Of a stretch of DNA of 64,000 nt, positions 930-64,000 are shown piece by piece. This DNA is from Trichobilharzia szidati. Lineage: Eukaryota; Platyhelminthes; Trematoda; Strigeidida; Schistosomatidae. Each line of letters opens with the position of its first letter. The first letter of the stretch is position 1. The DNA is taken from contig OX235277.1 of assembly GCA_944472155.2 (NCBI GenBank), positions 22,888,804-22,952,803 of the forward strand, given 5' to 3'. The position numbers and the translations under genes were made by a program. The notes below the pieces were generated by a model. The model searched no databases. It saw nothing but the letters and a program-made list of their open reading frames with translations, and had not been told where the DNA came from.

Positions 930-983
930 CTGTGTACTATAAAACTGCGAATATGCCGGAGAATCCCGGAATCATTAGTGCAA
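930..983 (+). CDS. Gene L exon (54 nt)
   Basis: Acceptor ATGTTTTTTTGACAG, 54-nt exon, donor GTGAGT. In phase 1 it reads VYYKTANMPENPGIISA, matching the gene M exon at 26942-26995. Both splice sites are intact, unlike in the segment B copy. Confidence 0.7.
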
Positions 984-1649
984 GTGAGTAAACAGAAATA
1001 AGCGAAGAGTATATGTATTTGTTTGTTCACGTTGAAGGACTTGGTATAGGTTAGACTTTAAATGATGAGGTGACTTTATCGAGAAACACGTTCGAAACAA
1101 ACTAGAAATACTGAACAGCAGTTATTTCCTATTTCCGATCTTTTAAATGGTATACACCAATAGGGATTCCCAGCCAGACTCTTCGGCGTACAAGCCGAGC
1201 TCGACTGAACAACAAAATCGGGAACAATGCATGAATAATTCCGCCGATAAACAGTTTCCAGTGTTTCTCTCACAGACGTATACAAACACTGAGTTCTTAC
1301 TTTCATTTGGATAAGTGCAGTAATTGCGAATAATTTAAGGGGAATATGAGATTTTTCGCAACACTTTTCAAATTATTTATTCCGTGAACTACTGGTCAGC
1401 CTCATTCAAGTATGGATAACAGACTCCTCGAATAGGCGTGTCAAATACCCCCATGATTACTATGCAGAAGTTACTTGTTTCATGGAGTATGAAAGCAAAA
1501 TTCAGAACGTATACTTCGTCCTAATAAAGATTCGTCGCTTGGTTATTCGTGATTTCCAATAGTTGACGCCTTTTTTATTGAGACTGGAAATTAGTACTCA
1601 TAATTTCAAATGTCAACAGAGCCACACCTCTGTGTAATAGATACCGTTT

Positions 1650-1862
1650 GAAGTGATTTATTCATGTTTGCGATTTCACCTCAAATTGGTGAAATGTTCA
1701 AAGATTGATGTGGTCGCTTTCTCCAAGCTGACAAGTTTAGTTGCGAACCTTACACTGTCTCCTTCTAGACAACATCTTCAGAGAAAATTTCAACATGAAG
1801 TGAAATTATCTGAATTCTCCATGAATGACAGATATGATTGCAAATCCCGATGATTTCTGTTG
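1650..1862 (-). mobile_element. Penelope-like 3' end in segment A
   Basis: CAACATCTTCAGAGAAAATT and AACATGAAGTGAAATTATCTG resemble the end of the Penelope copy at 17850-17960 and the fragment at 16070-16190. It stops where an RTE 3' end begins. Counterpart at about 43310-43520. Confidence 0.5.
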
Positions 1863-2560
1863 TTTGGAACTTTGGGGCCTCAACAACACACCTCCACTCT
1901 GTTCTATTATCCGCTCTCCTATCCAGCTGCACTCACGATGGCTCCTAATCTCTCACCTCCTCTATAACACCCTCAGAAGACTCACTCGTCCATCCCCACT
2001 CATCTTCAACTCGAGCGAAGGCCTGTATTGAACGCGATGTCATTCTACAGCCTCCTCAAAGTATGCCTGATCCTCCCCTTTTTTCTTCTACAATCGGTTG
2101 TTTTCGGTTTGTCCCCAGACTGAGTATCTAATTCTTTCTGGCCAGCCAGCCATTTGTTCTTAAGTTTGAATCCAGCGAAGGCAGCTGTTCGTGAAAGTCT
2201 GCTGTAGTCTGTTGGAAATTATTTCGTGACGCAACGGCCAAGTTTCTGACCCGAACGGAAGGACCAACTTGACATTTGTGTTGAAAATGCGAATCTGGTT
2301 CCTTATGCTGAGTGTAGAAGATTTCCAAACTAGGTTCAGGTTGATGAAGCCATATCCTGTCTTTCCGATTCTGATTCTAACATCTTCATCCGTTTCGCCG
2401 GCCTGTATTTGTCAGCAGACAAAGAAACAAGAAGATGCTTGCAATTGCAGAGGCTTGTGCAATTCGAGTTTACAAACCAGGTCTCTGTGTACAAAAGGAG
2501 ATGGTCGTGACTCTGAATCTACCATGGTAATACGTTTTACATATAATTCTACCTCTTATT
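1862..2560 (-). mobile_element. RTE 3' end inserted into Penelope debris (segment A)
   Basis: Minus-strand RTE C-terminus: EIFYTQHKEPDSHFQHKCQV, VRVRNLAVASRNNFQQTTAD. The 3' (AAT)n tail is visible in the segment B copy at about 43550-43570. Confidence 0.65.
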
Positions 2561-3369
2561 ATTATTTCTATTATTACTATTATTATTCTTGATTCATTTA
2601 AAACTATCCTTTATCAGTAGCATTATCTTAACTCACTTCAACACTATTATTATTATTGTTATTGTAACTATTACTATTGGCATCCCTCTGGTTGCAATTC
2701 TTGTTAAATTTTCTAATGTCTAATTGTTTATCTAAGTGATGTAATTGAAGCTTAATGTAATTTATCTTAATTTTGATCTCCCATACTCTCTCTCCCCTTA
2801 TCTAATTGAACATGACCTGGAAAAACATTCGCACCTGTCTTTCTGCATGACTAATTCAATGTAGTTTATTTACTTATCAGTCCTATATCTCCCAATGTAA
2901 TTTCAAAAGTGTATAATCCGTGTATGTGGAGTATTCAGCTGACGAGTTCTACCGAAATTTGATGAATTCATTAAATCCTGCTTTATTAACCTTTATTGCT
3001 TGTATTTGAAACGATTTTTCCTCGATAAGTGAAGTAAGCAACCTTTGTTAAATCTCTTCCGTCGATGGTGATTAGTGCTGGTTTTTAATGATATTAGCTG
3101 GTTATCTTGATCACCTCCATCTTCAGCCTTTTCGTGGTGTGCTGTTAATTTGCTTCACTGTTGACAGTCTGCATCGACTTGGAGTTTAAATTATTTTATC
3201 ATGTTATTGCTTCGTTATTGTTCAATAAATTCGAACTATAATAATATGCCTCTTAATCTCCGATTTATCTAAGTACCAAACTTCTGAGAGTCCCTTCGAA
3301 GTTTTGGTGTTCACGCTGCTTGCAATCTTCACATTTTCCCAGTCAAATAAGTTTCCCTAGTTATCTGCG

Positions 3370-5082: not shown

Positions 5083-5145
5083 TGTTGGTGAAGAGCGACA
5101 AAAGCAATGAGGATAATGGAAGATATTTTGAAGAAATGAATAGAA
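5083..5145 (+). CDS. Gene L exon (63 nt), type y of unit 1
   Basis: Acceptor ACTCTGTTTAAG, 63-nt exon, donor GTAAGT. In phase 1 it reads LVKSDKSNEDNGRYFEEMNR, a very acidic segment. By position it corresponds to gene R exon 56382-56444, but the peptides share only a few residues. The partner exon expected upstream (type x) is missing, because segment A joins at 4893. Confidence 0.6.
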
Positions 5146-5159
5146 GTAAGTCACCTGCA

Positions 5160-5420
5160 AACGTATATTTGCATTTTATTCTGATGGAATTCACCTATGC
5201 TTCACAATAGTACATGACTTCCTACCACAATGAGCACGATAAAGTAGGTCGATGTGTTTTGATAATGTAGTCTTCACACCAACGCAATATGTCGTATGAT
5301 AGACATCAGTAGAATGATGATGCAAACATCTCCGCCAGTATACTGAATATCTCCTGGAATTGATGATTCAAGAGAATTACTGACAGACACCCTGCAAAAC
5401 AAATCTCTATATCATCTGAA
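5160..5420 (-). repeat. Conserved intronic block with an antisense exon-like frame (copy 1 of 4)
   Basis: On the strand opposite to gene L, TTTGTTTTGCAG precedes about 195 bp ending AG|GTGAAT, like an exon with both splice signals. It reads VSVSNSLESS and GGDVC before stops. Copies lie at 6940-7190, 54540-54760 and 56105-56335, always antisense to the host gene and always after a type y exon. Confidence 0.5.
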
Positions 5421-5599
5421 CCAAAACATGCTGTTCATTTTTAGGAGGTGGTGGTGCATGCGTGTGAAACAATAATACTACCGACCTCATGTCTGTTTGA
5501 ATCATTCATCTCTTCTCCATTGCCACGTGAGGTTGGTTAGTTAGCTTGAGAATGTGAGAGAAAACGGCTTGACGGTTGACGACTGGTTCACATATTCGC

Positions 5600-6426: not shown

Positions 6427-6489
6427 ACAGATTTTGGGGATGGAATGAAGATTATGAGACGCTTCTACATTTTTCGGAATCGTTTGATG
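6427..6489 (+). CDS. Gene L exon (63 nt), type x of unit 2
   Basis: Acceptor GCATTTTTCTTTTAG, 63-nt exon, donor GTGAGA. In phase 1 it reads RFWGWNEDYETLLHFSESFD. Its gene R counterpart at 55219-55281 shares about 5 of 20 residues (YE, S, SF), yet exon length, phase and neighbouring intron blocks are conserved. Confidence 0.7.
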
Positions 6490-6846: not shown

Positions 6847-6909
6847 GAATGGCGAATCGCAGTGTAATCGATTGGAAGTTTGCAGAATCGCAAATGAATG
6901 AGACAAACA
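6847..6909 (+). CDS. Gene L exon (63 nt), type y of unit 2
   Basis: Acceptor TCTACTTCCTTACAG, 63-nt exon, donor GTACGC. In phase 1 it reads MANRSVIDWKFAESQMNETN, aligned with gene R MANRSLTLLEYAQSQLNATK (54780-54842). About 20 of 63 bases differ. Confidence 0.75.
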
Positions 6910-6939
6910 GTACGCGTCACACTGTTTAACTTATCTTTG

Positions 6940-7190
6940 CATTTTATTCTGATGGAATATTCACTTATGCTTCACAATAATAATACATGACTTCCTACCA
7001 CAATGAGCACGATAAAGTAGGTCGACGTGTTTTGATAATGTAGTCTTCACACCAACGCAGTATGTCGTGTGATAGACATCAGTAGGTTGATGCAAACATC
7101 TCCGCCAGTATACTGAACATCTCCTGGAGATGATTCAAGAGAATTACTGACAGACATCCTGCAAAACAAATCTCTATATCATTTGAACCA
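6940..7190 (-). repeat. Conserved intronic antisense block (copy 2 of 4)
   Basis: About 90% identical to 5160-5420, with the same GTTTTGCAG boundary. Reads SVSNSLESSPGDVQYTGGDV and runs to a stop. Part of the second x-y unit of gene L. Confidence 0.55.
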
Positions 7191-7740: not shown

Positions 7741-7785
7741 ATTATTTGTTGGGGAAACTCAAACGGAGAACACTGCTGGATAAGT
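7741..7785 (+). CDS. Gene L exon (45 nt)
   Basis: Acceptor GCCTCGCATTTAG, 45-nt exon, donor GTAAGT. In phase 1 it reads YLLGKLKRRTLLDK; the counterpart at 54161-54205 reads DILENLNTRTILDE, so charges are reversed at several positions while the frame is kept. Confidence 0.75.
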
Positions 7786-9149: not shown

Positions 9150-9188
9150 AAGTCCTGCCGAAGTTCCTTAATCTAGATAAACAATTTG
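9150..9188 (+). CDS. Gene L exon (39 nt)
   Basis: Acceptor CAACAAATTTCAG, 39-nt exon, donor GTAGGT. In phase 1 it reads VLPKFLNLDKQF, against IMVRLQRLNSTY in gene R. Only about 21 of 39 bases match, although both splice sites and the neighbouring intron are well conserved. Confidence 0.75.
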
Positions 9189-9457: not shown

Positions 9458-9523
9458 GTGATTTTATAAAAGTAATGAAGCCGCATATTAGGTTTGTGAG
9501 AAGTGAGATTGCTAAACTGAGAG
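9458..9523 (+). CDS. Gene L exon (66 nt)
   Basis: Acceptor TATATATCATTCAG, 66-nt exon, donor GTGAGG. In phase 1 it begins DFIKVMKPHI and ends RSEIAKLR; gene R has VYMEEMQQHI ... RSQIDRFR. About 46 of 66 bases match, whereas the bordering 50 bp of intron match at nearly 90%. Confidence 0.8.
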
Positions 9524-11220: not shown

Positions 11221-11277
11221 TTGAGCAGGATCATTTGACACATTCACCATGCATAGAACCTACACGATTGCAAAAAG
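11221..11277 (+). CDS. Gene L exon (57 nt)
   Basis: Acceptor CCTCTGTCTTACAG, 57-nt exon, donor GTATTT. In phase 1 it reads EQDHLTHSPCIEPTRLQK; gene R has EQNALTHSPCTEPTQLRE. This is the best conserved exon (about 47 of 57 bases), with one fixed cysteine in the motif THSPC. Confidence 0.8.
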
Positions 11278-11840: not shown

Positions 11841-12831
11841 ATAACTGGATGAATGATTGTGAGTACTGTACTGTATATCAGGTGTCATTGAATGACTTGA
11901 TGCCTTTGTATCTCTATCTGTATTTTATTCCGCATTATCTGGTTAGCGGATTATCGAAGCACTTGAATCCTTGAATATATACACAACTAAATACATAGGA
12001 GCGGTAGAAATATAAGCCATTTGTTTACAGACTGAATAAAACTGTTAGGGTGAAAATCGAATTTCTGTCAGAAAACGACATCTGAGCCAGCTGTCCTCAG
12101 TGTGCGAAAACACATCACTGTCAAATTAAAATAAATCAGGTCTGTCAATTTTGATTTCTATCTCATGTGAAGTGATACAATTCATTCATTCAAACCGTGT
12201 ATTGTGTCATTCGATATTTCTCATTCGATATTTGATAGGTTTTAGAAAATTGAGACGTTCGATTTCAAATGTATCCATATGGCGATCAAGATATTTCCAA
12301 TTCTCTCGTAAGCGCATATGACAATTCTCCGACCTTTTGTCTAGGGTTAACAGTGTTAAATTTACTCCCCCCCCTCTTCGTGTAAGAGCCACTTTCATGT
12401 TGAAGCAGTTTCATTAAAATCCTACTGTAGACACATTTCACACGTCGCGTGCTGCCTGCTACTGAACATGTGGATCCGTGTCAATCCACCATATATTGGA
12501 AAGCCTGTAGCTCTATGCATTTCTGTTACAATGGCTTTGGATTCCACCCGTGAGAACGAACATTATTTATCAGTGATGGAAGGAAGTCCATGGCTGCATT
12601 GACTCATGATAAAAGTAATTTCATTTCACTGTGAACTTGACTTTCACACACACACACACACCCGTAAAACATACACATGTATCTTTATAGTATTGATGTT
12701 GTAAATCGATAGACACATTTCACCACACCACACACTCGTTATAGTATTGACTGTGCAACGAACGCAACATGAATATAGAGAGAGTATATCACAGAAATTA
12801 ATCAAATTTTTCATTTTTATTTTAATTTTAG

Positions 12832-12881
12832 TCCTCAGTGGCGTCTTTCGCGAAATGGCTGATGCGATAAATGTGAGCTGA
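12832..12881 (+). CDS. Gene L terminal exon with stop codon
   Basis: Acceptor TTTTAATTTTAG, then in phase 1 LSGVFREMADAINVS and TGA at 12879-12881. The gene R counterpart ends in the same frame as NVS-stop, and a third remnant at 60010-60059 ends VMVS-stop. The bases GTGAGC before the stop look like a donor, but the shared stop in all three copies argues for a terminal exon. Confidence 0.65.
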
Positions 12882-14480
12882 AGTTTTTAACTGAAATTGT
12901 GTAGAAAGCCTGTTAATGACTTATCACAAACTATTCGCTGGAAAGTAAAGTGTGCTGACTGTAGAAAACCTGTCTCTGTTTTGTATGTCCAGATAGACAG
13001 TCCCAATGATCTGTGTCAGATCTCAGCTTAGCAGTGCCAACTACTCATTAGCCGATTTCTTCATACTGATGATGCACTGCTGTAGGCAGGTGGCAGACAA
13101 TCATTTTTGACAGTTTGACTTGATCGCAACGGACATGATGACGATGAACAGCTTCATTTGGATGCCTGTTATCGATCACTTGCACTACTTGCAATCCACG
13201 TGTCTCACGGACGGAAACTGAAAGCGTCCTTAACAATCTGACTAACTTACCACGCACGTATCCATCTTAAATCTCAATGATAAACTAACTCACTGTGATA
13301 CTAATGAATGTAATCAAATAGTCAGGAGTGGTTGACAATGTCAGTCTTCGCTTTGAGTCAGTCAACTTGAAGTCAACACACAGGAATTATCGTCCTGCTA
13401 TCGTGAATCACTCTGCAGGTGGAGTGTGGATATAGACTAATCTCCATTTGTGTGCTTTTGAAAAGTGCTTGTAAATTAGGTTGCGCTTAATCGCTTGTTG
13501 CATATATGTTAAGTGTCATTCTAAATATTGAGGCGTTTCATCCTGTTTTTTATGAATGTGCAAACTCATCCTTGGGAGATAGTGTGCTCCTTTAGTTGGT
13601 GTGCATTCGTCAGTCAGTAGTTACGGAGAGACAGCTAACACACTGTGAGGCTATACAATTCCACTCAGTGAATGACACTGACTGAGGTAGAATCAAGTCA
13701 CACATCTTACTTGATGAATGTGATAGAGTGATGTGTCATGTATTTTGTGTTTGTGTGTGTGCGCGCTGTTGAATCTCAGTGGGAAGGCAGTAGAGGCGTT
13801 GGGATAATCATCGAAATTCAAGAAGCACCGACTAACTCTCTCCACTTTGTTTGCACTCTTATTAATCATGCGTACTTTTTCTTTTCTGTGTAGAAGGTAG
13901 AAGTAGAAAACAATAGAATACAGTATCCCATGATACAACAACAGTGATGCATTACCGTCTCTGAAATTTTTCAACTATTTCCAACACTTAATTACAGTAA
14001 TGAATTTTACCTCTTACAGGCTTTTGTAGATTAGTATTAGTGAAATATAATAATAAAATATTTTCATCCCTAAATTGAAAATCTCCTTTTTCTGTCTTTC
14101 TCAAATATATTTGTGGTAATATTGCTTTCCAAATTGAATTACTTCATCACCTTTTCCCACATGTTTGATTGGGAATCAATCACATTGGGTAGAATAGCAA
14201 GAGGTGAAAGCATACTAGAACTCAGAGCATTTCACAGTGCATGTCACATGGAACATGAAAGTTATTAATGTGGTCTGGTGTATTCAAGTCAGGGATATTT
14301 GCTGTTTGTTCTGTTTACCGATGCAAAAGGATAACTAAATAGTTGAAGTGTAAAGCATCTGTTTGTCTAAGACCTACTAGTGTAACACAATTCATAATAT
14401 ATATTCGTCCTTTCATTCAAATAACGAGCCGTCGAATTCTGGACGTGATTGCGTGAGCGAATGGCTAAATCAATTGATGC
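12882..14480 (+). other. 3' flank of gene L, no gene seen
   Basis: Follows the gene L stop and matches the inverted stretch 46625-49060. No convincing poly(A) signal close to the stop. The minus frames at 13048-13257 and 13693-13974 are not conserved as coding in the right arm. Confidence 0.5.
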
Positions 14481-15271: not shown

Positions 15272-15288
15272 TCATTTATCTTTCCTAC
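15272..15288 (-). CDS. Candidate terminal exon of gene M
   Basis: A strong acceptor (ATCTTTTTTCACAG) is followed in phase 1 by Arg-Lys-Asp-Lys and a stop (TGA at 15274-15272). A minus-strand AATAAA lies about 86 bp further on. It is unlike the terminal exons of L and R, so the assignment rests on signal quality alone. Confidence 0.3.
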
Positions 15289-19377: not shown

Positions 19378-19446
19378 CGAATTTATGAAAAGCCTCTCGT
19401 ACCATTGTTTTGACTGCTATATTTATAATACTCGTTGGCGACTCGT
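19378..19446 (-). CDS. Gene M exon (69 nt)
   Basis: Acceptor ACATTTATGTTTAG, 69-nt exon, donor GTAAGT. In phase 1 it begins ESPTSIINIA and ends REAFHKF. Correct phase and length class. A Penelope copy (17850-19260) lies immediately downstream in the next intron. Confidence 0.7.
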
Positions 19447-20109
19447 CTAAACATAAATGTATTCATTACTGTATTGAGTGAAATTTGAACTTACTGGGGA
19501 ACCTGTCAATTCTGAGCTTCTCAACCTTTTGTACTGCAGAGATCAGTTGAACTAAACATGTGAAATAATGTCAGGAGGAAATATTAATTGAGCAGATATC
19601 TTCGTAAATACAGGTGAATGTTTAAACAGCATATTGCCTATTTCTCCTCCTTCTTATTTCAGAGTTTGTGTCTGGATTCTATGAGTCATGATATGATCTG
19701 CAAGCGGATAGCTCTGCCTGACACTCAGGTGTCTCGCTTGTTGTGTTGCCTGGTATTCATCACTAAGCAGTGTAATGTAATACCCAGTAATGTAATACAA
19801 TCTTGAAGGAACAACTTGTTTCCCTTCTGAGATTCGAACTTTCATTCATCCAACGCTACCTGCAGTCAAAGAAATTATCACTGAGCTTTAGTGGCACGCG
19901 ATCCAGCTCCTTTAACGGAGCAATGAATACTCTGGTTGAGCACTAGGCAGAAATGATTGTACAACACCTGGTCCGTGTTGCTGGTACAGAGTGAATTTTA
20001 TTATTCAAGTCTGCAATTTGACCACCATGTCAAGTGGCTCAAGTGGGTGTAGAAATAGAGATAAATATAGGGAGAGAGAGAGGCAGATTTGAAGACTTTT
20101 CAGATATCT

Positions 20110-22799: not shown

Positions 22800-23950
22800 G
22801 AGTTCTAGTGATGTGTCTGGAACAACGGAGTTGACCATTTGGAATTTGACAACAAATACTCACCTACGAAATTGGGTGGCGGATGCGATAAAGTCACGAA
22901 GTACTACTTGCTGAAATTCAAGAGCCGCTGAACTATGTCCTCTCTTGGTTGAATGTTCAGCAAGGTTGTTCCCATCGCCTGCACGTCCTTGGCTCAATCA
23001 ACGATGAAAACGCGCCAGCGTACTGTCGAAAAACTTCGAAATAGGGCGGAACAGCTAGCGAGTGCTCCTTGATGGTCTCCAGTGGTTCTCTTACTGATCT
23101 CAAACTACGATCAAACTTGAAGGAAATCAAGTCCTTACAGAGTAACTCTTGAATATTCTATGAAAGTCTCATCCTCGTGAAATTTCCTTCCAAGTCTGAT
23201 GCAACAACTTTTCAACACGTGTTGTGCGGGTGAAGTTCCGTGTGTCCTGCAGATATACACACAGGCCTTCTTTGTTTTAGTTCGCAAAGTGTTGTCAGTA
23301 TTTGAAATTGCTTCAAAGCAGATGGAAACAGGATTGCAAGCACACAATGTTTCGCTTACCAACAGCATTTTTGAATTCAGATATTGGCACATTTGTCGAA
23401 TTTGATTTCGTCAGGAATTCATCGACAGCTGTGAAGAAAATACGAGGCTATTGATAGAAGTGGTTAACAGGCACATAGGATTGAATAAGGCAAAGTCATT
23501 CAAAAGTTATGAGTGACAAGAAGATATTCGTTTTGCAAGCTTTGAGCTCTGAGTGGAGCATATGGCTCTAGAGAACTTGAAATCTTGATATTTCAGAGGA
23601 TAAGGTGTAATTTTAACGGTATCCGTCAGGACCACGTGATTTGTTGGCGAGAATTCTACCGCTGAACCTCTCACGCAAGTGGATACACAGGACATTTGTT
23701 CCATATTCACCTAGAGGGTAGGTGATATTGAGCGAACAAACGGATGTGGGATTGGTTTACATCACTGCTTGACATCAGTTAGAGAGATGGTGAAATCCCT
23801 CAGATGGGGAACAGCTGCTTCGTCTAAGAGAGATATGAGTTACATATTGTCAGAGAATTGGAAATGGAGTGCTTTCCAGAGAAGAATAACAACATGCACC
23901 ATTTAATTTCAGTGGGGGAAATTAAAATGTTGTCGATTCCCTCACTTAAT
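22800..23950 (+). other. Gene M intron, no feature supported
   Basis: Open frames at 23135-23392 and 23507-23710 show no homology to the repeats or exons here and no splice support. Confidence 0.4.
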
Positions 23951-24682: not shown

Positions 24683-24736
24683 CATTTTGATCCAGTTGCA
24701 TTCCTGACATTTCCAAACATTTCCGCTCAACATTCT
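24683..24736 (-). CDS. Gene M exon (54 nt)
   Basis: Acceptor CCATTTGTCCAG, 54-nt exon, donor GTAAGT. In phase 1 it reads NVERKCLEMSGMQLDQN. Strong donor. It carries one of the few cysteines in the protein. Confidence 0.7.
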
Positions 24737-25195: not shown

Positions 25196-25249
25196 CTCTT
25201 GATTGGATAAATTCCGTTTCTGCCGAGACTTCTTTGGCAATCAATTCAC
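25196..25249 (-). CDS. Gene M exon (54 nt), acidic
   Basis: Acceptor CTGCTCTCCATTAG, 54-nt exon, donor GTAAAC. In phase 1 it reads ELIAKEVSAETEFIQSR, an acidic helix-like peptide. Same length and phase as its two neighbours. Confidence 0.7.
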
Positions 25250-26941: not shown

Positions 26942-26995
26942 TTGCATTGATGACTTTAGGATTCTCCAGCATATTCGCACTTTTATAGTACAAAG
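26942..26995 (-). CDS. Gene M exon (54 nt), counterpart of the first gene L exon
   Basis: Acceptor TCTTTGACAG, 54-nt exon, donor GTGAGT. In phase 1 it reads LYYKSANMLENPKVINA. It is homologous to exon 930-983 of gene L and to the orphan copy at 42619-42672, with about 9 base differences from the former. The homology runs on into the flanking intron up to about 28340, including the same RTE insertion, so these genes share a common ancestor that already had this intron. Confidence 0.75.
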
Positions 26996-29074: not shown

Positions 29075-29143
29075 CCGCTGTCGCATACAGATCCTTTCTA
29101 GCCTTCCATGCATTGTCAAGAGATTTCATGAAGTTATCATAGA
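29075..29143 (-). CDS. Gene M exon (69 nt)
   Basis: Acceptor ACTAATGCTTTGCAG, 69-nt exon, donor GTAAGT. In phase 1 it begins YDNFMKSLDN and ends ARKDLYATA, a charged helix-like peptide. Strong signals and correct phase. Confidence 0.75.
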
Positions 29144-30287: not shown

Positions 30288-30356
30288 CTGTAGTTAGGCG
30301 AATTTTCGATTTTTTGTCTCTCAATTTGGAACCACTACCTCCGAAAACAATACGAT
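30288..30356 (-). CDS. Gene M exon (69 nt), basic segment
   Basis: Acceptor TTGTTGTTTTCCAG, 69-nt exon, donor GTAGCT. In phase 1 it begins RIVFGGSGSK and ends SKIRLTT, a glycine- and lysine-rich segment. Length equals the next exon. The donor is acceptable but not strong. Confidence 0.6.
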
Positions 30357-31016
30357 CTGGAAAACAACAAACACAAGAAATTAGAACAGGAAGTACGTAA
30401 CTAGGTGTGCTCTTGAGAAAATTCTCTATCTATTTATCTATCTACAATTGGTTTATCTATCTTAATATCTATCTGTGCATTTATGGATACATGCACTCAT
30501 ACGCATATTCCTATATAAATATAGACATATCGGGTATATCAATAAACTCACGGGGGAACACTGCAACATCTTCGAAAGCACCTGAGCAGCAGAAATATGC
30601 AGACACATTATCTACTCACTAAGCTCATCTAACACGTTCACGTTTTAATGCATGTATTAATCTTGCAGTGCATCAATTTAAATTGGAGACACAGATTGTG
30701 AATGCATGAGAGGTGTGAACATTTCTGAATAGGCCATAGGGGAGTGACAATAGAATTTATTCTTTAGGCAGTTCCATCGGAAAACGTAAGACTTCTGTGT
30801 TCAACGAATAATTTTCAAATCTTTGTTTTGCAGAATTTCATAGTCAGTCGTCGGAGCATAGAGATTTCTATGGTTGTTTCTGAATCTAGCTGATGAATTG
30901 GGGTGGTTAAGTTGTATATAATGAGGCAGCTCAGAGTCCGGTAAGGTAATCTTCACTGATTTCTTATGTGAGTTCTTGTGTCTGTCTACAACAGTATATC
31001 GGAGGAAAGGCGTAAC

Positions 31017-32050: not shown

Positions 32051-32369
32051 TCTTAATCATTTGTCGGTCAAACTGGCGAAGTAGTTTGACTGTGATTGAA
32101 TCTCAACTTTCCAAATGATTCTTTACGAGCAGTCATCATGTCAGTGAAAAAAAAAGTGAAAATAAATCATACGCGTAAATTTGTCATGCAATCGAGTTAA
32201 TTCCTCCACATTCCTCCAATAAAAGTCGTTTTTCAGCTCTGTAATCAATGAAAATATCATTCATGAGTCATTTGGATAAAAGATAAAGATAAGGTGTAGT
32301 TGGACAGATATGTGTATGTAATTGTCACAGTGGAAGACACATCCACTGATTGAGTCTCATAGTAATAAT

Positions 32370-33825: not shown

Positions 33826-33882
33826 TGTTCAGATACTCCACGGTAGTTTTCCAAAATATCTCATTCTTGGTAATGTGCATAA
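33826..33882 (-). CDS. Gene M exon 6 (57 nt)
   Basis: A long pyrimidine tract and acceptor (TTTCTGTCTTTCAG), 57-nt exon, donor GTGAGT. In phase 1 it reads MHITKNEIFWKTTVEYLN. Strong signals on both sides and the right phase. It lies just beyond the Penelope fragment at 32970-33640. Confidence 0.7.
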
Positions 33883-35958: not shown

Positions 35959-36021
35959 CATCGTTAAAATCCGCCACATTCCATTTTATTCCCAGTGCTC
36001 TGACTGTCAATAATGCTTGGC
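35959..36021 (-). CDS. Gene M exon 5 (63 nt)
   Basis: Acceptor TTCTGTCTTACAG, 63-nt exon, donor GTGAGA. In phase 1 it reads QALLTVRALGIKWNVADFND. The joint with exon 4 creates a Cys codon (T+GC). Open in the one frame that fits its neighbours. Confidence 0.75.
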
Positions 36022-37072: not shown

Positions 37073-37135
37073 ATTCAGAAGTCTTGTAATAGCCATACAG
37101 TTCACCGTAATGCTTGATTAGCGTGTCCAATTCAT
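37073..37135 (-). CDS. Gene M exon 4 (63 nt)
   Basis: Acceptor TCTATCTTCTAG, 63-nt exon, donor GTGAGT (both strong). In phase 1 it reads ELDTLIKHYGELYGYYKTSE, a charged, tyrosine-rich helix-like segment. Length and phase equal those of the 63-nt exons of genes L and R. Confidence 0.75.
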
Positions 37136-37950: not shown

Positions 37951-37992
37951 TGTTTTGTACCGGAGATAAATCATTGCACAGCACGAAGGACA
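37951..37992 (-). CDS. Gene M exon 2 (42 nt)
   Basis: Acceptor TTTTATTACAG, 42-nt exon, donor GTAAGT. In phase 1 it reads SFVLCNDLSPVQN. The first two bases complete a Leu codon with exon 1, extending the hydrophobic signal sequence, and the mature chain probably begins near Asn-Asp-Leu. The 2.65-kb intron to exon 1 holds the RTE copy at 38690-40545. Confidence 0.65.
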
Positions 37993-40648: not shown

Positions 40649-40700
40649 ATTGAAACAACGTCCAAACAAACGGCATTATCAGGCAATGCTTCTTAATCAT
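40649..40700 (-). CDS. Gene M exon 1: start codon and signal peptide
   Basis: The ATG at 40700-40698 opens a 52-nt coding exon reading MIKKHCLIMPFVWTLFQ, ending one base into the next codon at the strong donor GTGAGT (phase 1). Two lysines followed by a hydrophobic stretch, continued by exon 2 (LSFVLC), make a classic signal peptide. The TATA box 54 bp upstream supports the start. This is the only exon of this group found with both promoter and start signals. Confidence 0.7.
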
Positions 40701-42618: not shown

Positions 42619-42672
42619 GTGTGTACTATAAAAGTAAGAATATGCTGGAGAATCCCGAAATCAATAATGCAA
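42619..42672 (+). pseudogene. Orphan exon copy in segment B with a broken acceptor
   Basis: The segment B counterpart of gene L exon 930-983. It reads VYYKSKNMLENPEINNA in phase 1 and keeps the donor GTGAGT, but the acceptor dinucleotide AG has become TG (GACTG). No other plus-strand exon of the family lies downstream before the inverted arm starts at 46625, so it is a dead fragment. Confidence 0.6.
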
Positions 42673-45400: not shown

Positions 45401-47539
45401 CTTGTGGCATGTGCCACTACTGATAAGATTTATCAGTAGTATATATATAAAAAGATGTTTTATCGGCTAAGAACATCATATACCAGGGAGATATATTTGT
45501 TGTCAGAGAAAGCGAACGATATAGTGTTACAAAGATACATGGAAGACGTGAAAGGAACACAAATAAATACAATGCGAAGCAACGGTAGAAGTTGCACAAC
45601 ACGGACGATCTGTGCAAAAAGTGATTTGAAGATGATGTGTGCATAATTTCTCTATAGAGAGATACCAAATTACAAATAAGCATTCCTTTATCGAATCTAT
45701 CATCTTCAGCCGTTACAGTATTAATTCGAGTTTATATGTTGTCTACAAGGAAACAGCGAAGGCTTTTCAATTGAACCATCCAGCTCATAGACAGTTACTA
45801 CATCAAAATACTCCACTCGAGCTACAAATCGTCTCTAATATTTTGTGATTCAAAATATTCTGCAGCCAGCTTGAACCTCGGGCTACCCAAATTTACTGTC
45901 ACTAATATTGCATCTGATTGCATCACTTCCCTCACACCATCTGCACCCATACGTCTTTCTCTCTAATCTTTCTCGCCATGGCAAAATTAACGAAAGCGTG
46001 AGTGCATGAATGAATCGATGGATGAAAGGATGGATGGTTGGATATTTGAGTGGATTGGTGAATGAGTGTGAATGCAGATAATCTGACGACGATTTGACAT
46101 GAAGGAATTAGTGATTTGTGGTAGACTTTACCCTCCAGAAGAATACTCAAATCTGTTTAATGATTAGCGAGCACCTGGAAAGTGAGATACCCGTGAATCT
46201 GTGCAACGTGTATTCATTGATCCACTCAACTCATGCGGGCAAATGAGGTGAATGGAAAGCGAGGTTCCAGGAGTCTTCGTTATTTACTTTCAGGTTGGAT
46301 TTTATAGGTATTTCTCAGACATTCACTGCTGCCTCTACTGTTCAACTTCTTACTGAGTGTGGAGGTCTTAACATGACAAGTGAGTTTTTGCTGTACATTT
46401 TACTACAGTGTTAAATCTATGAATTCAAACTGTTTCCTGATAAACCCTAGAATGATATTTGCTCCTGGGAGTTTGCCAATTGACAACTTCATTAGATACG
46501 CAGCATCAAATGATGATACAGTTGGATTCATGTGAATGTTGTCTGAATCACATTCACTTCACCAGAAATTTACACACACACATTACTGCAAAACGAATAA
46601 TCCTCATCAGTTCAGTAAGACATTGACTCACTCACTCACGTCCAGATTTTCAGGGCTCATTATTCGAATGAAAGAAGGAATACTATGAATTGTGTTACAC
46701 TAGTAGGTCTTAGACAAACAGACGCTTAACACTTAAAGTATTTCCTTCTCTTTCCGCATCGGTAAACAGGACAATCATAGAATACACAAGCGAACACTGA
46801 TTGATTACTTTCATGGTCGATGTCAAATGCACTGTGAAATGGTCTGAGTTCAGATATGCTTTCACCTCTTGCTATTCTACCCAATGTGATTGATTCCCAA
46901 TCAAACATTTGTGAAAAGGTGATGAAGTAATTCAATTTGGAAAGCAATGATATCACAAATATACTCGAGAACTAGAGAGAGAGAAGATTTTTTTATTTGG
47001 GTACGGAAATATTTTATTGTTATATTTCACTAATACTAATCTACAACAGTCTGTAAGAGGCAAAATTAAATACTTTCACTAGGTGTTGAAAATGTCTGAA
47101 ACATTTCAGCGACTGTAATGCATCACTGTTGTAGAATCAAGTGTTGGTTCAGTCCTTCTTCACGTGTATCTACCACCTGCATAGAAATAAAACAACTCAG
47201 GATCAACGAGAATACAAACAATGTGGAGAGAATTGGTCTGTTCTTCTTGAATTTCGATGATTCTGCCTGCGTCTCTACTGCTTTCCTACTGAGATTTGTC
47301 ACCACACAACCACACAATCCAAGACACCTCACTATATCGCATCAATCAAGTTATATGTACGACTTAATTATACCCCAGTGTATATGATTTACTGAGTGTA
47401 AGTGTACAGTCCCACATCGTGTGAATTGTCTGTCATATGAAAAAGAGAAGACGTTCAGCGAAGAGACTCTTTTCGGCGAATTCATTCACATAGCTGTACA
47501 ATCGCATTTATATATAGATATTTGTGTGTGTGTGTACAT

Positions 47540-49061: not shown

Positions 49062-49111
49062 TCAGCTCACATTCACAGCAACACTTAGGTCACTAAAGAA
49101 GCCACCGAGGT
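49062..49111 (-). CDS. Gene R terminal exon with stop codon
   Basis: Acceptor TTTCAATTTTCAG, then in phase 1 LGGFFSDLSVAVNVS and TGA (49064-49062). Same length and stop position as the gene L terminal exon (12832-12881), with about half of the residues changed. Confidence 0.65.
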
Positions 49112-49999
49112 CTGAAAATTGAAATTAAATGTTAATTAGTTTAACGGTGTTGTAGCTCCAGTTGTGGGATACTCTTTCCAGTCACATCGCATTCGTTGCA
49201 CAAGAAATAATATAAAGAATCAATAAGAGTGTAGGGTAAAGTGTAACGATCAATATACATGGATGTGTTACGTGTGTGTTTGTGTGTGTGTGTGTGAAAG
49301 TCAAGTTCGCAGTGAAATGAAATCACTTTTCTCACGACTAGATGCAACCATGGACTTTCATCACTGATAAGTAATATTCTCACGATGGAATTCAGAGCCA
49401 TTGTAGGAGAACTGCTTAGCTGTCTAAGATTTACAGAAACATCAGATTGATGCGAATCGACGTGTTCAATAGCAGTCAGCAAGCGACGTGTTGAACACAT
49501 TCAGTAGCATTCTTAGGGAACATCTTCAACATCAAAATGGCTGGCGGAGGAACGGTAATAAATCAACCACTGCATACCGTAAACAAACAGGGAGTATTTT
49601 CATGTGCTTACAAGTGTTTTGAAAATATCTTGATCGCCATACGGATTCATTTGATATCCAAATTTTCAATCTTCTGAAACCTAACAAACATCAAATCATA
49701 AATAATATCACATTACAAGGTGTAAATGAATTGTGTCACTTCTCTTCAAACCAGAGTTATTCTAATTTGGTAGTGATATGTTCTCTCAACTGGTTGGCTT
49801 TCATTGCCATTCTGGACACCATGCTCAGCTGTGATTTTCTTTTCGATATTCGATTTACACTGGAAGTGTGTGAGTAAACACACACACACACACAAGTGAA
49901 AAATATGAAACACTGCACACCTCAAAAGAGAACAGGTTATTATATCACATCCCACACTCTATTCACCAATTTTCGTTTCTATCTGGACAAATAAATAGG

Positions 50000-50563: not shown

Positions 50564-50620
50564 CTTCTCTCAATTGTGTTGGCTCTGTGCATGGTGAATG
50601 TGTCAAAGCATTCTGCTCAA
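50564..50620 (-). CDS. Gene R exon (57 nt)
   Basis: Acceptor CTCGATCTTACAG, 57-nt exon, donor GTATTT. In phase 1 it reads EQNALTHSPCTEPTQLRE. Of about 10 base differences from gene L, only two (Glu GAA/GAG and Pro CCT/CCA) look silent. Confidence 0.8.
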
Positions 50621-52059: not shown

Positions 52060-52125
52060 TTCTGAATCTATCAATCTGACTTCGTACAAATTCAATATGC
52101 TGCTGCATTTCCTCCATATAAACAG
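52060..52125 (-). CDS. Gene R exon (66 nt)
   Basis: Acceptor CTATATCATTCAG, 66-nt exon, donor GTGAGG. In phase 1 it begins VYMEEMQQHI and ends RSQIDRFR, the counterpart of gene L exon 9458-9523. Both flanking introns are nearly colinear with gene L. Confidence 0.8.
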
Positions 52126-52400: not shown

Positions 52401-52439
52401 CCATATGTTGAATTTAGACGCTGCAATCTCACCATGATC
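52401..52439 (-). CDS. Gene R exon (39 nt)
   Basis: Acceptor CAACAAATTTCAG, about 39 nt, donor GTAGGT. In phase 1 it reads IMVRLQRLNSTY, aligned over its whole length with gene L VLPKFLNLDKQF. The upper boundary may be off by one base in my count. Confidence 0.65.
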
Positions 52440-53639
52440 TCTGAAATTTGTTGTTGTGAAAAAACGTCTCATTTAAGCAAAGTCTTTGAACATGTATTAA
52501 TGAGAGATATGCTGAAATAGTTTAGTGACGTGTAACATTCTGTGGAATATAGCTGTGTTATTTGGCGATGAATATCATTTGAAGACAACGTGGTCCTTCA
52601 ATTAAACTTCGTTTTCTCTCTCCAACATGGATGCCATGAGCATTTGTTGTCTTTGAAAACATTCAAAATAGCTTCTCCCTATACCAAATTTTAATATCCC
52701 TATTGGAGATAACGGAGTTGTTCCGGAAGAATTTGATGTATTGTCTAATCCACTTGAAACACTGTGTCCCGACATACACACACACACAGACAAACACTTG
52801 CCATTTCAGTTTGGATGAAAATGGAGGAGGTGTAATGTCTAATGAAGTAATCAAAATTAATTAGGGATTCAAGTATGTTCAGGATGATAACTGACACTAC
52901 ACTCCTGATAGTCAGGCAAGGATAATGAAAGGAAGATTATAGCAACCAGAAGTGGTTTTCACTCAAGCAAGTTGGGCTTAATCTCACACATGGCAGTCAC
53001 CTCAGATTACTTCAGTATGCACAACCAGCTTTTTATCAGATAGTATTGTAACAACAGAAGGCAAGAGTCAGGCAACAGATCATTTATTAAGGAAATCAAC
53101 GCATATTTATATATTTTCATGTACATTACTATGGATATTTAACCAAACAAACACAGTCTTCCGATTGGTTGTTTCTCACGTAAAGTTAATCTTTCATCTA
53201 TTTGTGACTGTTTCTTGAATGTTAAATCCTCTATATGTTAACTGCATCCGCCTACGCAAAGTCTGCTGTGGTCGGTTTTGAATCAATCTTTGTTCACATT
53301 TTCTCACGACAAATCTTGGGAACGTAAATATTGACGTAAATTACTGTCTACCAATTTGGCCAGTAGACAGCTCTCACCACAATAAGGAAACAACCTTAAA
53401 CCCAGTTTTGATTTTATCCTCATAACTAACGAAGTACAGTAAATCGGTTAAGTTCAATCAAGTGATTTCCATTCGCATACAACTGACTATCATGTCTCAC
53501 ATATTTATCACTAATTATTTCAGATACACTCCTAAATGCCTTCACCACAAGAAGGAATTAATCACTGGTGAAATTTTTGCGAGGCTTCTCACATCAAATT
53601 AACCATGTGATAAGAAATGAAAGATGTTCTAGTTTCACC

Positions 53640-54160: not shown

Positions 54161-54205
54161 ACTCATCCAGAATTGTTCTCGTATTCAGATTCTCCAGTAT
54201 GTCAG
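54161..54205 (-). CDS. Gene R exon (45 nt)
   Basis: Acceptor TGCTCATAATTTAG, 45-nt exon, donor GTATGT. In phase 1 it reads DILENLNTRTILDE, matching the 45-nt gene L exon (7741-7785) with its RT.LD core. Confidence 0.75.
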
Positions 54206-54779: not shown

Positions 54780-54842
54780 CTTTAGTAGCATTTAATTGCG
54801 ATTGTGCATACTCCAAAAGAGTGAGGCTCCGATTTGCCATTT
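54780..54842 (-). CDS. Gene R exon (63 nt), type y of unit 2
   Basis: Acceptor CAATATTTTTCAG, 63-nt exon, donor GTACGT. In phase 1 it reads MANRSLTLLEYAQSQLNATK. The MANRS start and the SQ.N.T ending are shared with gene L exon 6847-6909. Confidence 0.75.
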
Positions 54843-55218: not shown

Positions 55219-55281
55219 CATTGAACGAGCGAGACCAACGAACCATTGACTCATATCTAGTCTCATTTTCTAAAATTTGAC
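55219..55281 (-). CDS. Gene R exon (63 nt), type x of unit 2
   Basis: Acceptor CCGTGTTTTTAG, 63-nt exon, donor GTGAGG. In phase 1 it reads QILENETRYESMVRWSRSFN, the counterpart of gene L exon 6427-6489, with only about half of the bases shared. Confidence 0.7.
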
Positions 55282-56381: not shown

Positions 56382-56444
56382 TTCGATTCACAACGCCGAA
56401 AATTCTTCGATTCGCAGGTTCAATAGGGTCTCTTCTTAACAATG
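56382..56444 (-). CDS. Gene R exon (63 nt), type y of unit 1
   Basis: Acceptor AATTCTATTTCAG, 63-nt exon, donor GTATGT. In phase 1 it reads LLRRDPIEPANRRIFGVVNR, a basic segment. Its positional counterpart in gene L (5083-5145) is acidic. Confidence 0.7.
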
Positions 56445-57191: not shown

Positions 57192-57248
57192 TTCTGTGGG
57201 AGTCGAACCAATCAATAGCCCTAATCGTCTGCATCTCAGCAATTCCAC
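57192..57248 (-). CDS. Gene R exon (57 nt), type x of unit 1
   Basis: Acceptor ATTTTCTGTTTAG, 57-nt exon, donor GTGAGT. In phase 1 it reads GIAEMQTIRAIDWFDSHR. By its flanking intron blocks it occupies the same place in its unit as exon 55219-55281, but it is two codons shorter and strongly diverged. Confidence 0.7.
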
Positions 57249-58274
57249 CTAAACAGAAAATATAAAATGATGAATGCAGATTAGCAGAAAGAGACCTCTG
57301 CATCCTCCAGCTGAAATACAGTTTATTATCGACGTATTAGTTTGCAAGAAAGTGCATCATTTCAAGTTTGCCGAATTCATTATTGTACACACATACACAG
57401 GTACCGACCAATAATGCAATACAACTTCACTGAACGGAAATGCATAACTAACTGACAGAATAACTACGTGAATAATAATAAGTATACATAATGGATGAGA
57501 ATGTGGAGCATTAAAATCAGTGAATACCCATGCGCTCGTTTTTCATACCCATTTCCAGTCATATCATGGACAACACTCACCTGTCTAGAACACATTCATA
57601 TTGATCATGATATGTGAAAGTGTGTTGCTCAGTAAAGACTGCATTATCAATCAGTCGAGACACTAGTTCATTGAGTGAGACTTCTTAGCATGAGAATCAA
57701 TAGTCGCTTCAGTGTCTCCCGGATTGTTTCTCTGGTAACTGTGAATAACACAGTCTGATGGATGAGAGTCGACTCTAAAGGCTGATCCACTCCCCACCCT
57801 TTCGACAAGCCTCTGAATCCTCTGGAAACACTGGAACCAAACTAGTTTTCAAAAAGTCTACTTTCGTCCTTGTTCTTAGAGCTGTGAGTGTGTGTCTATG
57901 TGTTTTTGGATCTCCACGCCGACTGCAGAAACCAATTTCTCGTAGGTTTTGTCTCCTCGATGATGATTGATGCATTTTGCTACCGCTGTGGTTGTTGTTG
58001 TTGTCAGTGATGGTGGTGGTGTTGATGTAGGTGGTTGATGTGGTCAAGTATGTTTGTTTCCTTTGTCATCTTTGTGTTCTGAGTTTTTCTTCACTTGACT
58101 GGCACTTTTCTTTGGCAGTTGGTCTCTATCGGCATATGTTTATTTCTAATTATTTATAGGCCATTCGTGAAAACGCAATTATCATGGTATTTCTCGTCAA
58201 ACTGTCTCATATGTGGCATGTCGTCATTCAGCCCAGCAGATTCAACGATTTCCTCGCTGGTATTAGGTGCCTAC

Positions 58275-58755: not shown

Positions 58756-59383
58756 GATGCACTCCTACACCTGTACAGGCAGGTGCTACGTTCAGCAGAG
58801 AGGGAAATCTGTGTGTGAGGCTAGTAGCAACATGCTGTGAAACATAAAACCAATGCGACTGGAACTTCAGAGCTCAAGATGACAGCCATTTGTTTCACCC
58901 GAATTATAAAGGGACAAAATCAAGATATGTGTAAAATAGATCACTGCTTACCCCTTTGTATATCTGAATGTACAAGCAGTGGAACGACAATAGTTATCAG
59001 GAAGGCTGTGTACCGATTCATCATGTTTATGTTTGATCATTCAATTCACGAGTATTTATACTAGTGCTGAAATTCAGATGTCTGTGAGCACAGTATAATC
59101 CTGGATGGTGGTTGGCCGATTCAATCTGTCTTACTTTATTTCACGTCTTGATTGGATTCTGAATGAAGTGATGCTCACGTTCGATCAAATAACAACTTGT
59201 GTGCGCCAATCATAGAAGAGAAAAAATCAGCAAAGTGAATTGAGAGTGACTTCAGTTTTGCAGATATTTTGGAGCACTTCATATGTTATAATTCAATGAT
59301 GGAGACAAGTAAAAGAAGACGTTGAAGAAGGGTATTCATTGCTGCTCACACATAAACCACTTTTGAAATGTTTCCACACTCAC

Positions 59384-61065: not shown

Positions 61066-61069
61066 CAGG

Positions 61070-61318: not shown

Positions 61319-61326
61319 CCCCCCCC

Positions 61327-61436
61327 AAAAAAATATGGAACTCTTCACGGTTTTGCGTGTCATCCTTGCGCAGGGGCCATGCTTATCTTCCCTGTATCGT
61401 TCCAATTTTAGTATATGTACCGCCAAAGCGAGCAGA
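61327..61436 (-). ncRNA. U6: U6 snRNA copy, probably a pseudogene
   Basis: The minus strand carries an almost full-length U6: CATATACTAAAATTGGAACG, then CATGGCCCCTGCGCAAGGAT and GACACGCAAAACCGTGAAG, ending TTCCATATTTTTTT. The invariant ACAGAGA box, which contacts the 5' splice site, reads ACAGGGA (61389-61395), and AGATTAGC reads AGATAAGC. The 5' end is altered (GTCTGCTCGC). These changes in the catalytic core argue for a non-functional copy. Its 3' T run is followed directly by a SINE head, as in a chimeric retrocopy. Confidence 0.85.
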
Positions 61437-61439
61437 CAT

Positions 61440-63110
61440 ACTCAAGCACTGATCGAGTTCATTTGCACGATTAGAATGCAGGTGAAATCACCTTGAACTA
61501 CATGGTCATTGAATTTGCAAATATTGGGATCTCGTAGTTGGCGTTTTTAATGAACGAGAGCGTTTGTGAAGAAGATGAGGTGTAGAGATGTAGCATCGAA
61601 CCTTCTTCGAATTGATATCAACAGGCCACACTGGAGAACTCCAGTAATTGTACCTGTCTTGAATTTCAGATTTATACTTAGTCGTTTCTTCGTCACATCC
61701 AGGTGTCGATTCGGATAAGTCTGAGTCTTTGGAATACCGTCACTACTCCGTATTTCTTTAGGTTTATTTGATCATCTCAGGACATTGATGTGTGGTGGTT
61801 ACACCACTATTCAGATTATTTGAGGCGAATAACTCATACAGGTAGAATAAAGTTGCGTTAGAATGACACTAGTAAATAGGGAATATAAATTATGAAGGCG
61901 AACTTATTATCTACTGATTCCACCTGGACAGAAGCAAAGATATACTCGTAGTTCGACAGTTGACCGTTCTCATTTACATTTTGATAAACACGTTAGTAAA
62001 TGTTCTAGTGTGTGACTCGAAAAAGAGCTGCTTGTAAAGGATACGGACTAAGTTCTACAAATCAAGTGAACTTGTTGACAAAAACGTAAAGTTGCCAAAG
62101 TAAAAAGTAAAACTCGAAGACTCCCCTCTCCACGATAACATCAGTCTCATTTGCACGTGTCAGTTGATTTGATTGATATATATGAACATCAGCAAGATTG
62201 ACGGGAATCTCACATTCCAGAAGTTCGTAAATCAGTAGGCAGAACGGAGTATTTTCTGGAGGCTATGATCTTTCACAAATCACCAATTCATTCATGTAAA
62301 ATCGTCTCCAGATTATCTCAACTCACATTCATTCATCCATCTATCCATCTAACAACCCATCGATTCATTCATACCTTCATGGTTTCGTTCATTTTGACGG
62401 AGTATGAAAGAGAAAGGAAAGGTGTCTGAGTGTGGACAGTGTGAGTGAACTGAAACAGAGCTACCGAGAAAAAACTCCAAGAAATAATACAAGCCACGCA
62501 AACAAAACAACGACCAAGCGATAGAGTAATCTTCGTGAAAATCCAGCGGAATGAAGAGAATGAGAAAAACGATGTAGAAAAATTCGAGTTGAATACAATA
62601 AATACGGTCAGTATGCATAGCAGGAAAACTGAACGTGAAATAACTGCATAAAAATGAGACTATTGAAAACAAAGCACAATATTGGCCACGTATATTCCAT
62701 CAACGACAGAAATAATGAGAATAAACTGGCGTTCATTTAGGTATAAATGAACACATTGTGAGATTTACCAATGTGACACCACTGTTTCTGATTATTCTAC
62801 ATTCCTTCGATGACCTGAATCTTCCGATAACACAAAACATTGACTGATAATATCTGAAGAGAAAAGTCTTTCTATCTATTGTATCAATGTATTTCATTAT
62901 TTAGAATAATAATGATAATAATATTACTGATAATATTGATAACATTGTTATTACAGGAACTTGAATATCTCAACTAATTTTCTGGCATCTGAGTGAATAT
63001 TCTCACTGCTCATTACAGTGATTCACTCAGACATTCACGCATACGGAGATAGCGAGTGAGACAGATACACATTGATGGTCCCATTGATGCAAATTAATTT
63101 TTCCAACAAC
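61440..63110 (+). other. Intergenic or intron 1 of gene R, nothing recognised
   Basis: If 63296-63350 is exon 1 of gene R this is intron. No exon found; short simple repeats only (TTCATCCATC near 62325-62350, AATAATAAT near 62905-62925). Confidence 0.35.
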
Positions 63111-64000
63111 AGAGAAACAGCACAAAGTGTTGACATGATTCACACAAATGCAAAATACCTGAAAATAATCAGACCGAATGATGGCGTGTAATTAATAATA
63201 ATCATGATTATTATTTTTAGTTGCGTTATACCTGAAGCAGTAATTTTGATACCGTGTACGTCTCAGTATTCTGTACCATGTCACATCCAATTTACTCGAT
63301 AACAGCAGAATAAATGCGAGATAATATTGCAGGGTAGTGAGTGACAGCATGGTTGTGTTAGCAGGTAAAATGAAATCAAAATTATTCAACATGAGTAAAC
63401 TAGTGATCAAAATGTTAGTCGGTAAAATTTTAAGCAAGTTAATTGAAACTCTATCAGCATACATCAGAAAGAGGAGAGAACTGAAGAGTCAATTGTTTGC
63501 TAATAACAACGTAGGTCATATCTGAATCACAGAGGACGTGGGCGAAATAGAGCATTGCTGAATTTTGTGCTGGGTTAGTATTTTCCAATTACTTCTAGTC
63601 CCGTCTAATGGGATGTAAAGGTGTTGTCAAATAGGGTGACCACTGGATGCTTGTTTATCGACAGCGGTCGCCAATGACGAACAAGTTGATTGCGTGAGGT
63701 ATTCGATCGTGTGAAACTTAGAAGTAGACGTAAGAATACGAGTGAAAGTACAATCAATTCTTCTGTAATAACATTCATTGATAGACCTAGAACAGAATAT
63801 TGTTTTCCTACAATGAAGAAAAACAACTTCTTGCCTTCCATTGTGTTTTGGAATCAAAGTCGATATCTGTGCCTAGTGATTAATCGATTCTGAGATTCCT
63901 GGCAAAATGTCCCATTGATGTATATGCCAATTAAATTCCCAACACAGAAACAGCACAAAGTGTTGACATGATTCACACGAATGCACAATATCCAATAATA
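63080..64000 (+). repeat. Edges of a ~830-bp direct repeat
   Basis: GAAACAGCACAAAGTGTTGA and CATGATTCACAC(A/G)AATGCA occur at about 63114-63155 and again at 63947-63988, each preceded by a CCCATTGATG stretch. This suggests a tandem repeat whose second unit runs out of the window. The candidate signal-peptide exon lies between the two edges. Confidence 0.5.
63296..63350 (-). CDS. Candidate signal-peptide exon, perhaps exon 1 of gene R
   Basis: ATG at 63350-63348 reads MLSLTTLQYYLAFILLLS and ends one base into the next codon at donor GTAAAT, i.e. phase 1 like gene M exon 1. The peptide is a convincing hydrophobic signal sequence. No clear TATA box was found, and no in-frame exon links it firmly to the 57-kb exons, so it could belong to another gene. 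Confidence 0.35.

Follow-up and report, generated by a model that had tools for sequence, protein, structure and literature searches.

Probable genes for small secreted proteins built almost wholly from short phase-1 exons in the bird schistosome Trichobilharzia szidati

The closest described systems for the genes reported here are the micro-exon genes (MEGs) of schistosomes and the bicycle genes of aphids. In the strict definition, most of the coding region of a MEG lies in exons of 6–36 base pairs (bp) (PMC5825161, PMC4671649); a limit of 54 nucleotides (nt) is used in PMC8846543, and a 2023 review admits 10–20 exons of 3–81 bp, mostly divisible by 3, with long introns (PMC10526429). MEGs carry a signal peptide in the first exon and short symmetric central exons between long introns, and they occur in clusters (PMC4671649, PMC5825161, PMC10526429), with retroelements nearby and high ratios of non-synonymous to synonymous substitution (dN/dS) (PMC4671649, PMC5825161, PMC4350168, PMC10526429). 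MEG transcripts have been reported in Trichobilharzia schistosomules, some of which are not close to Schistosoma mansoni MEGs (PMC6362228). The bicycle genes, which encode fast-evolving salivary-gland effectors, have many small internal exons that nearly all start from codon position 2 (PMC9168663), and their proteins have saposin-like folds (PMC13041983). We analyzed a 64,000-nt stretch of the Trichobilharzia szidati genome (GCA_944472155.2, contig OX235277.1, positions 22,888,804–22,952,803 of the forward strand), hereafter the window. Three genes in it, denoted M, R, and L, are judged with a probability of roughly 0.82 to be schistosomatid protein-coding genes for small secreted proteins, in which nearly all exons are of phase 1 and 30–69 nt long.

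Gene M lies on the minus strand and comprises 16 exons across 25.4 kb that encode 294 residues, while gene R on the same strand comprises 13 exons across 11.9 kb that encode 248 residues (Table 1). Both extend from a TATA box and a signal-peptide-like ATG through a stop codon to AATAAA. TATAAAT is located 61 nt ahead of the ATG in M and 36 nt ahead in R, AATAAA follows the stop by 85 and 104 nt, respectively, and a single open frame is maintained across the 15 junctions of M and the 12 junctions of R. Gene L on the plus strand has 11 exons encoding 204 residues. Among the 35 internal exons of the three genes, 33 are 30–69 nt long, divisible by 3, and of phase 1 (14/14 in M, 10/11 in R, and 9/10 in L); the two exceptions are the copies in R and L of a 41-nt exon G, which is asymmetric (phase 1 to 0). 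The original prediction, made from the letters of the window, had counted more than 25 phase-1 blocks that are divisible by 3 and bounded by AG/GT, and had placed a signal peptide behind a TATA box in exon 1 of M; the count is exceeded by the final models, and the arrangement seen in M recurs in R. The N-termini of M and R are hydrophobic, and by eye the hydrophobic stretch of M appears to continue into exon 2. The coding parts of the first and last exons are short (52 and 17 nt in M, 73 and 54 nt in R). Mature M has two cysteines (53 and 213), R has two (125 and 186) that recur in L, and 3–6 N-glycosylation sequons occur in these proteins, which are probably secreted.

M and R fall within the wider definition of MEGs, as they have 16 and 13 exons, internal exons of 30–69 nt of which 24 of 25 are divisible by 3, and introns of 48–4089 nt. 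By contrast with the strict definition, an internal exon of 36 nt or less was found once among 14 in M and not at all among 11 in R, and 8 of the 25 qualify under the 54-nt limit. A layout resembling that of MEGs, with longer exons and no known product, had been foreseen, and is borne out by these figures. The first-exon signal peptide (putative here), the short symmetric central exons, the long introns, the clustering, the nearby retroelements, and the high dN/dS are shared with MEGs; unlike MEGs, the exons of M, R, and L are 30–69 nt long and uniformly of phase 1, and no sequence link to a named MEG was found. We regard M and L/R as MEG-like genes and do not file them as a MEG family. Similar to those of the aphid bicycle genes, the internal exons of M, R, and L begin at codon position 2. 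The published bicycle classifier gave 0.35 for M and 0.46 for R, both below its cut-off of 0.72, and the bicycle genes belong to another phylum; the likeness is one of gene structure.

The small-exon pattern was evaluated by scanning both strands for open AG..GT blocks of 21–75 nt with a splice score of at least 8. Generic splice matrices were used, as an earlier, stricter matrix yielded almost nothing, and 20 second-order Markov sequences served as the null. The scan gave 15 blocks that are divisible by 3 and of phase 1 (12 on the minus strand, 3 on the plus strand) against 1.5 expected per strand, approximately 3 in total, whereas the remaining eight classes of phase and length summed to 22 blocks against approximately 21 expected. 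This indicates that the pattern is not due to chance, since the enrichment is confined to one class. Thirteen of the 15 blocks were retained as exons in the final models; of the other two, that at position 930 is a copy of exon m9 and that at 15489–15512 is unused; the scan by itself thus recovers 13 of the 33 internal phase-1 exons.

Comparison of L with the inverted R copy provided a second line of evidence. Ten aligned exons exhibited no insertion or deletion (indel) over their 563 nt, while the ±60-nt flanks carried 21 in 1083 nt. The exons would have been expected to hold 10.9 such events (Poisson P = 1.8e-5), or approximately 8.5 with exons C2 and F2 left out, where again none was seen. 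These two exons were detected through the L/R alignment itself. In each of the two genes, splicing exon C straight to D would create a stop codon, which the conserved C2 between them abolishes. The phase-1, divisible-by-3 class also leads the nine classes among L/R-conserved blocks (8/15 at a score of at least 4, 12/31 at a score of at least 2). The L/R dN/dS was 0.73 (bootstrap 0.48–1.13), and the identity of exons (0.66, 371/563) is slightly below that of flanks (0.70, 812/1156), which indicates that the frame has been kept and the residues hardly so. This ratio fits the high values described for MEGs in PMC4350168 without showing positive selection. A candidate terminal exon H of L and R (14020–14034 and 47036–47050; a short frame and stop with AATAAA beyond) was dropped because the database relatives use 13894–13947.

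Those relatives were obtained by a protein search that requires shared exact words, with early models as queries. The M query (237 residues, up to m12) gave six proteins, P0001–P0006, which are 50–64% identical to it (E 6e-54 to 2e-107); five are from T. szidati and one is from T. regenti, all unnamed or uncharacterized and carrying no precomputed Pfam domains. An L/R profile gave two unnamed T. szidati proteins, P0007 (E 3e-90) and P0008 (E 3e-65). Pfam gave no match for L or M and two for R, both under the curated cut-off; the PDB gave only three weak matches for R (E 0.09–0.1) and none for the two family profiles. The family had been called possibly undescribed, which is right for its name and function as far as the searches show, although relatives are deposited as unnamed or uncharacterized T. 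szidati and T. regenti proteins; among the literature matches listed, which mostly fall outside subscription journals, no paper was recognizable as describing these families. Boundaries of 13 of the 16 M exons and 10 of the 11 L exons had been fixed before the relatives were known, and these exons, except for D, then matched the relatives one by one. The relatives served as a guide for adding exon m6b, the longer m13, and the terminal exon mT to M. They also show m13 and m14 as exons, and a reading of these two as bits of an adjoining retroelement was rejected. P0002, P0003, P0004, and P0005 span all 16 M exons with a 3-residue insertion in each and one extra residue in P0005, while P0006 lacks m12–m14. 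P0007 spans 10 of the 11 L exons and is approximately 94% identical to L over those shared (179/191 residues), a closeness that by itself points to Trichobilharzia or a near relative as the source; P0008 spans 8 of the 11. M and L accordingly share both exon make-up and full-length similarity with Trichobilharzia relatives, and R is more distant.

In three of the eight relatives, the internal differences coincide with whole exons: m4, with its 21 residues, is absent from P0001 (which also differs in m14 and repeats the m7–m13 block), P0007 lacks D, and P0008 lacks D, F, and F2. Judged from these alignments, whole-exon changes have happened, whether through splicing, at the gene level, or during gene prediction. 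Alternative splicing may account for them better than differences from gene to gene. A competing explanation is that these are ordinary multi-exon genes for secreted proteins that owe their common phase to exon duplication and do not skip exons at all, the absences being due to prediction errors or gene differences. It draws on the relatives' appearance of predicted proteins, on the fact that the case for skipping comes from sequence comparison, and on MEG-8.2, for which PMC12998952 describes a skipped stretch in only one clone of 10. The fit of the absences to whole exons speaks against it, and we consider it a serious possibility that is nevertheless on the doubtful side.

Several observations weigh against the interpretation of M, R, and L as functional genes for secreted proteins. 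The three models derive from genomic sequence and protein comparison, signal peptides were assigned by eye and not by a predictor, and P0001–P0008 look like predicted proteins themselves. The L/R indel test is partly built in, since equal length modulo 3 was required when C2 and F2 were found, and the dN/dS given above is indistinguishable from neutral. The helical moment is only mildly above that of shuffled sequences, being reached by 37 (M), 237 (R), and 16 (L) of 1000 shuffles. The R query alone gave no match at E ≤ 10, and R is only 38–43% identical to its database relatives. Pfam gave no match for L or M and two for R, both under the curated cut-off; the PDB gave only three weak matches for R (E 0.09–0.1) and none for the two family profiles.

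A further point of this kind is that L has no certain first exon and is possibly a truncated copy. It could be a dead or dying gene in which the segment 1–4902 has taken the place of the 5′ end; this segment is 88% alike to 41656–46631, and upstream of L, no convincing match to an A1-type exon or to the first exon of P0008 was found. On the other hand, AG/GT signals and an open frame are found in all eleven exons of L, no indel separates ten of these exons from R, and P0007 starts with a methionine directly before B1. The decay of L is a tentative proposal, to which we give some credence but would not subscribe. Within R, the intron ahead of exon A is present twice (55373–55916 and 57520–58070, 88% alike), which is read as a duplication of the A/B exon pair. 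In L, the introns after B1 and B2 (5206–5432 and 6979–7199) are 95–97% alike in pieces, while the two exons agree at 25 of 63 bases in an ungapped comparison. These introns look homogenized by gene conversion, and for this reason we make no claim, from the paired B1/B2 and A1/A2 units, that exons evolve faster than introns.

M, R, and L might alternatively be members of an already named MEG family in which exon size has grown larger. The design of a leading signal peptide, many symmetric exons, and long introns would be explained, as would the findings that such genes have so far been seen in schistosomatids only and that retroelement pieces lie in and near them, and the exon number and size admitted in the 2023 review (PMC10526429) would accommodate them. 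Opposed to this are the single internal exon within the strict limit given in PMC4671649 and PMC5825161 and the database results: no MEG name appears on the eight relatives, and no MEG-named protein occurs among the listed matches of the protein searches with M, R, and L/R or of the PDB searches, MEGs not having been compared directly. No listed match at E ≤ 10 was named from Schistosoma either, which is weak evidence, as exact-word searches with early models were used and the coverage of Schistosoma was unchecked, so that absence there is not shown. Membership in a named MEG family is considered unlikely.

The original prediction of at least three paralogous gene copies and two remnants was correct in part. 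Three gene models were obtained, and L and R are paralogues, but M is no detectable paralogue of either: comparison of the M family with the L/R profile gave a probability of 0.2% from shallow alignments, that is, no similarity. By sequence comparison, M and L/R are thus either unrelated or diverged beyond detection, and represent two families with one architecture. The only tie between them is exon m9, through two stray copies. The copy at 42619, which lost its acceptor AG, is a remnant, whereas that at 930 keeps AG/GT. One could imagine that avian schistosomes run an exon-exchange system in which unrelated secreted families share the all-phase-1 format and exons move between them as modules; exon m9, intact upstream of L and decayed at 42619, would then be a module caught on its way between genes, and L would be a chimera. 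This idea is speculative, and we think it improbable.

That the blocks are a dispersed non-coding repeat or a chance product, as the repeat-rich window with its retroelement pieces might suggest, is negligible in view of the full-length protein relatives in other genomes, the L/R indel test, and the exon-by-exon protein matches, which are taken as refuting it in practice. Besides the duplicated block named above, the window contains an inverted pair (approximately 4.9–14.7 kb versus 46.3–56.4 kb, 68–92% alike by piece), and its G+C content is 36–42%. Pieces of a retroelement of the long interspersed nuclear element type occur at 39073–40048 (+) and 20120–20783 (+). A reverse transcriptase match was obtained at 39073–39438 and a weaker one at 39665–40048; none was obtained for 20199–20783, though this part is 72% alike to 39867–40540. 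Three further pieces, at 18030–19210 (−), 33295–33630 (−), and 47952–48512 (−), presumably encode Penelope-type element proteins, judging by eye from their look, and one of them sits inside the last intron of M; a Pfam search of three frames returned nothing of this type. A repeat with a transfer-RNA-like look by eye has three copies that are 75–90% alike (10601–10770, 17016–17172, and 32406–32560). A U6 spliceosomal RNA gene or copy was detected at 61329–61433 (−) with 101 bits. The feature had been drawn as far as 63350, where a signal-peptide-like ATG (MLSLTTLQYYLAFILLLSS) is located on the minus strand; by eye it has neither a TATA box nor a phase-1 donor, and this end point was not counted, though it is possibly the start of another gene.

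Table 1. Positions of the exons of genes M, R, and L and of related blocks in the window. Scan, small-exon scan; reading, read from the sequence; L/R, alignment of L with R; relatives, P0001–P0008.
Feature	Positions	Strand	Length, phase	Support and remarks
M exon 1	40649..40700	-		ATG, signal-peptide-like MIKKHCLIMPFVWTLFQ, phase-1 donor; 76–94% to exon 1 of P0001–P0006
M m2	37951..37992	-	42 nt, phase 1	Scan, relatives
M m3	37073..37135	-	63 nt, phase 1	Scan, relatives
M m4	35959..36021	-	63 nt, phase 1	Scan; absent from P0001
M m5	33826..33882	-	57 nt, phase 1	Scan, relatives
M m6	32173..32238	-	66 nt, phase 1	Reading, relatives
M m6b	30552..30581	-	30 nt, phase 1	Picked by length in relatives, identity only 10–30%
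M m7	30288..30356	-	69 nt, phase 1	Scan, relatives
M m8	29075..29143	-	69 nt, phase 1	Scan, relatives
M m9	26942..26995	-	54 nt, phase 1	Scan; copies at 930 and 42619
M m10	25196..25249	-	54 nt, phase 1	Reading, relatives
M m11	24683..24736	-	54 nt, phase 1	Scan, relatives
M m12	23360..23428	-	69 nt, phase 1	Scan, relatives
M m13	19495..19551	-	57 nt, phase 1	Start revised in the light of relatives
M m14	19378..19446	-	69 nt, phase 1	Reading, relatives
M mT (terminal)	15272..15288	-		GRKDK stop; P0001 and P0003 also finish in GRKDK
R exon 1	58952..59024	-		ATG, MMNRYTAFLITIVVPLLVHSDIQR; 65% to start of P0008
R A1	57192..57248	-	57 nt	Scan
R B1	56382..56444	-	63 nt	Reading, L/R
R A2	55219..55281	-	63 nt	Reading, L/R
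R B2	54780..54842	-	63 nt	Scan, L/R
R C	54161..54205	-	45 nt	Reading, L/R
R C2	54054..54110	-	57 nt	L/R
R D	52402..52440	-	39 nt	Reading, L/R
R E	52060..52125	-	66 nt	Scan, L/R
R F	50564..50620	-	57 nt	Reading, L/R
R F2	49612..49680	-	69 nt	L/R
R G	49071..49111	-	41 nt, phase 1 to 0	Reading, L/R
R terminal (stop)	47123..47176	-		Placed via relatives
L candidate first exon	2037..2106	+		MSFYSLLKVCLILPFFLLQSVVF, phase-1 donor GTTTGT; weak, TATAAC only, at −74
L B1	5083..5145	+	63 nt, phase 1	Reading, L/R; 100% to P0007 and P0008
L A2	6427..6489	+	63 nt	Scan, L/R, relatives
L B2	6847..6909	+	63 nt	Reading, L/R, relatives
L C	7741..7785	+	45 nt	Reading, L/R, relatives
L C2	7833..7889	+	57 nt	L/R, relatives
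L D	9150..9188	+	39 nt	L/R conservation only; wholly absent from P0007 and P0008
L E	9458..9523	+	66 nt	Scan, L/R, relatives
L F	11221..11277	+	57 nt	Scan, L/R; absent from P0008
L F2	12239..12307	+	69 nt	L/R; absent from P0008
L G	12832..12872	+	41 nt, phase 1 to 0	Reading, L/R, relatives
L terminal	13894..13947	+		KVEVENNRIQYPMIQQQ stop, AATAAA 104 nt on; 100% to P0007 and P0008
m9 copy	930..983	+		Upstream of L, in its strand and phase, AG/GT intact; candidate member of L only
m9 copy, remnant	42619..42672	+		Acceptor AG lost

On the interpretation of M, R, and L as genes for secreted proteins, which would also be transcribed, proteins of 200–300 residues would be assembled from modules of about 10–23 residues. 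Since the phase is uniform, any such exon could be lost, duplicated, or relocated and the reading frame would stay intact, and the proteins may vary by whole-exon steps for that reason. Such variation could arise from gene duplication (L and R), from duplication of exon blocks (the A/B pair in R and the m7–m13 block in P0001), from the loss or skipping of single exons (D, F, F2, and m4), and possibly from the transfer of exons between genes, as with the m9 copies. A role at the parasite-host interface may be proposed from the signal-peptide-like starts, the loosely conserved residues, and the resemblance to MEGs. The blood-fluke micro-exon-like genes are extended here by two unnamed families of secreted proteins with near-complete gene anatomy, found in bird schistosomes, which cause swimmer's itch. 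This suggests that the size limit by which micro-exon genes are defined conceals other genes of much the same design, and that a format of many small exons in uniform phase may exist in schistosomes as it does, by analogy, in aphid effectors. Gene finders that are weak on short exons may miss or shorten such genes.

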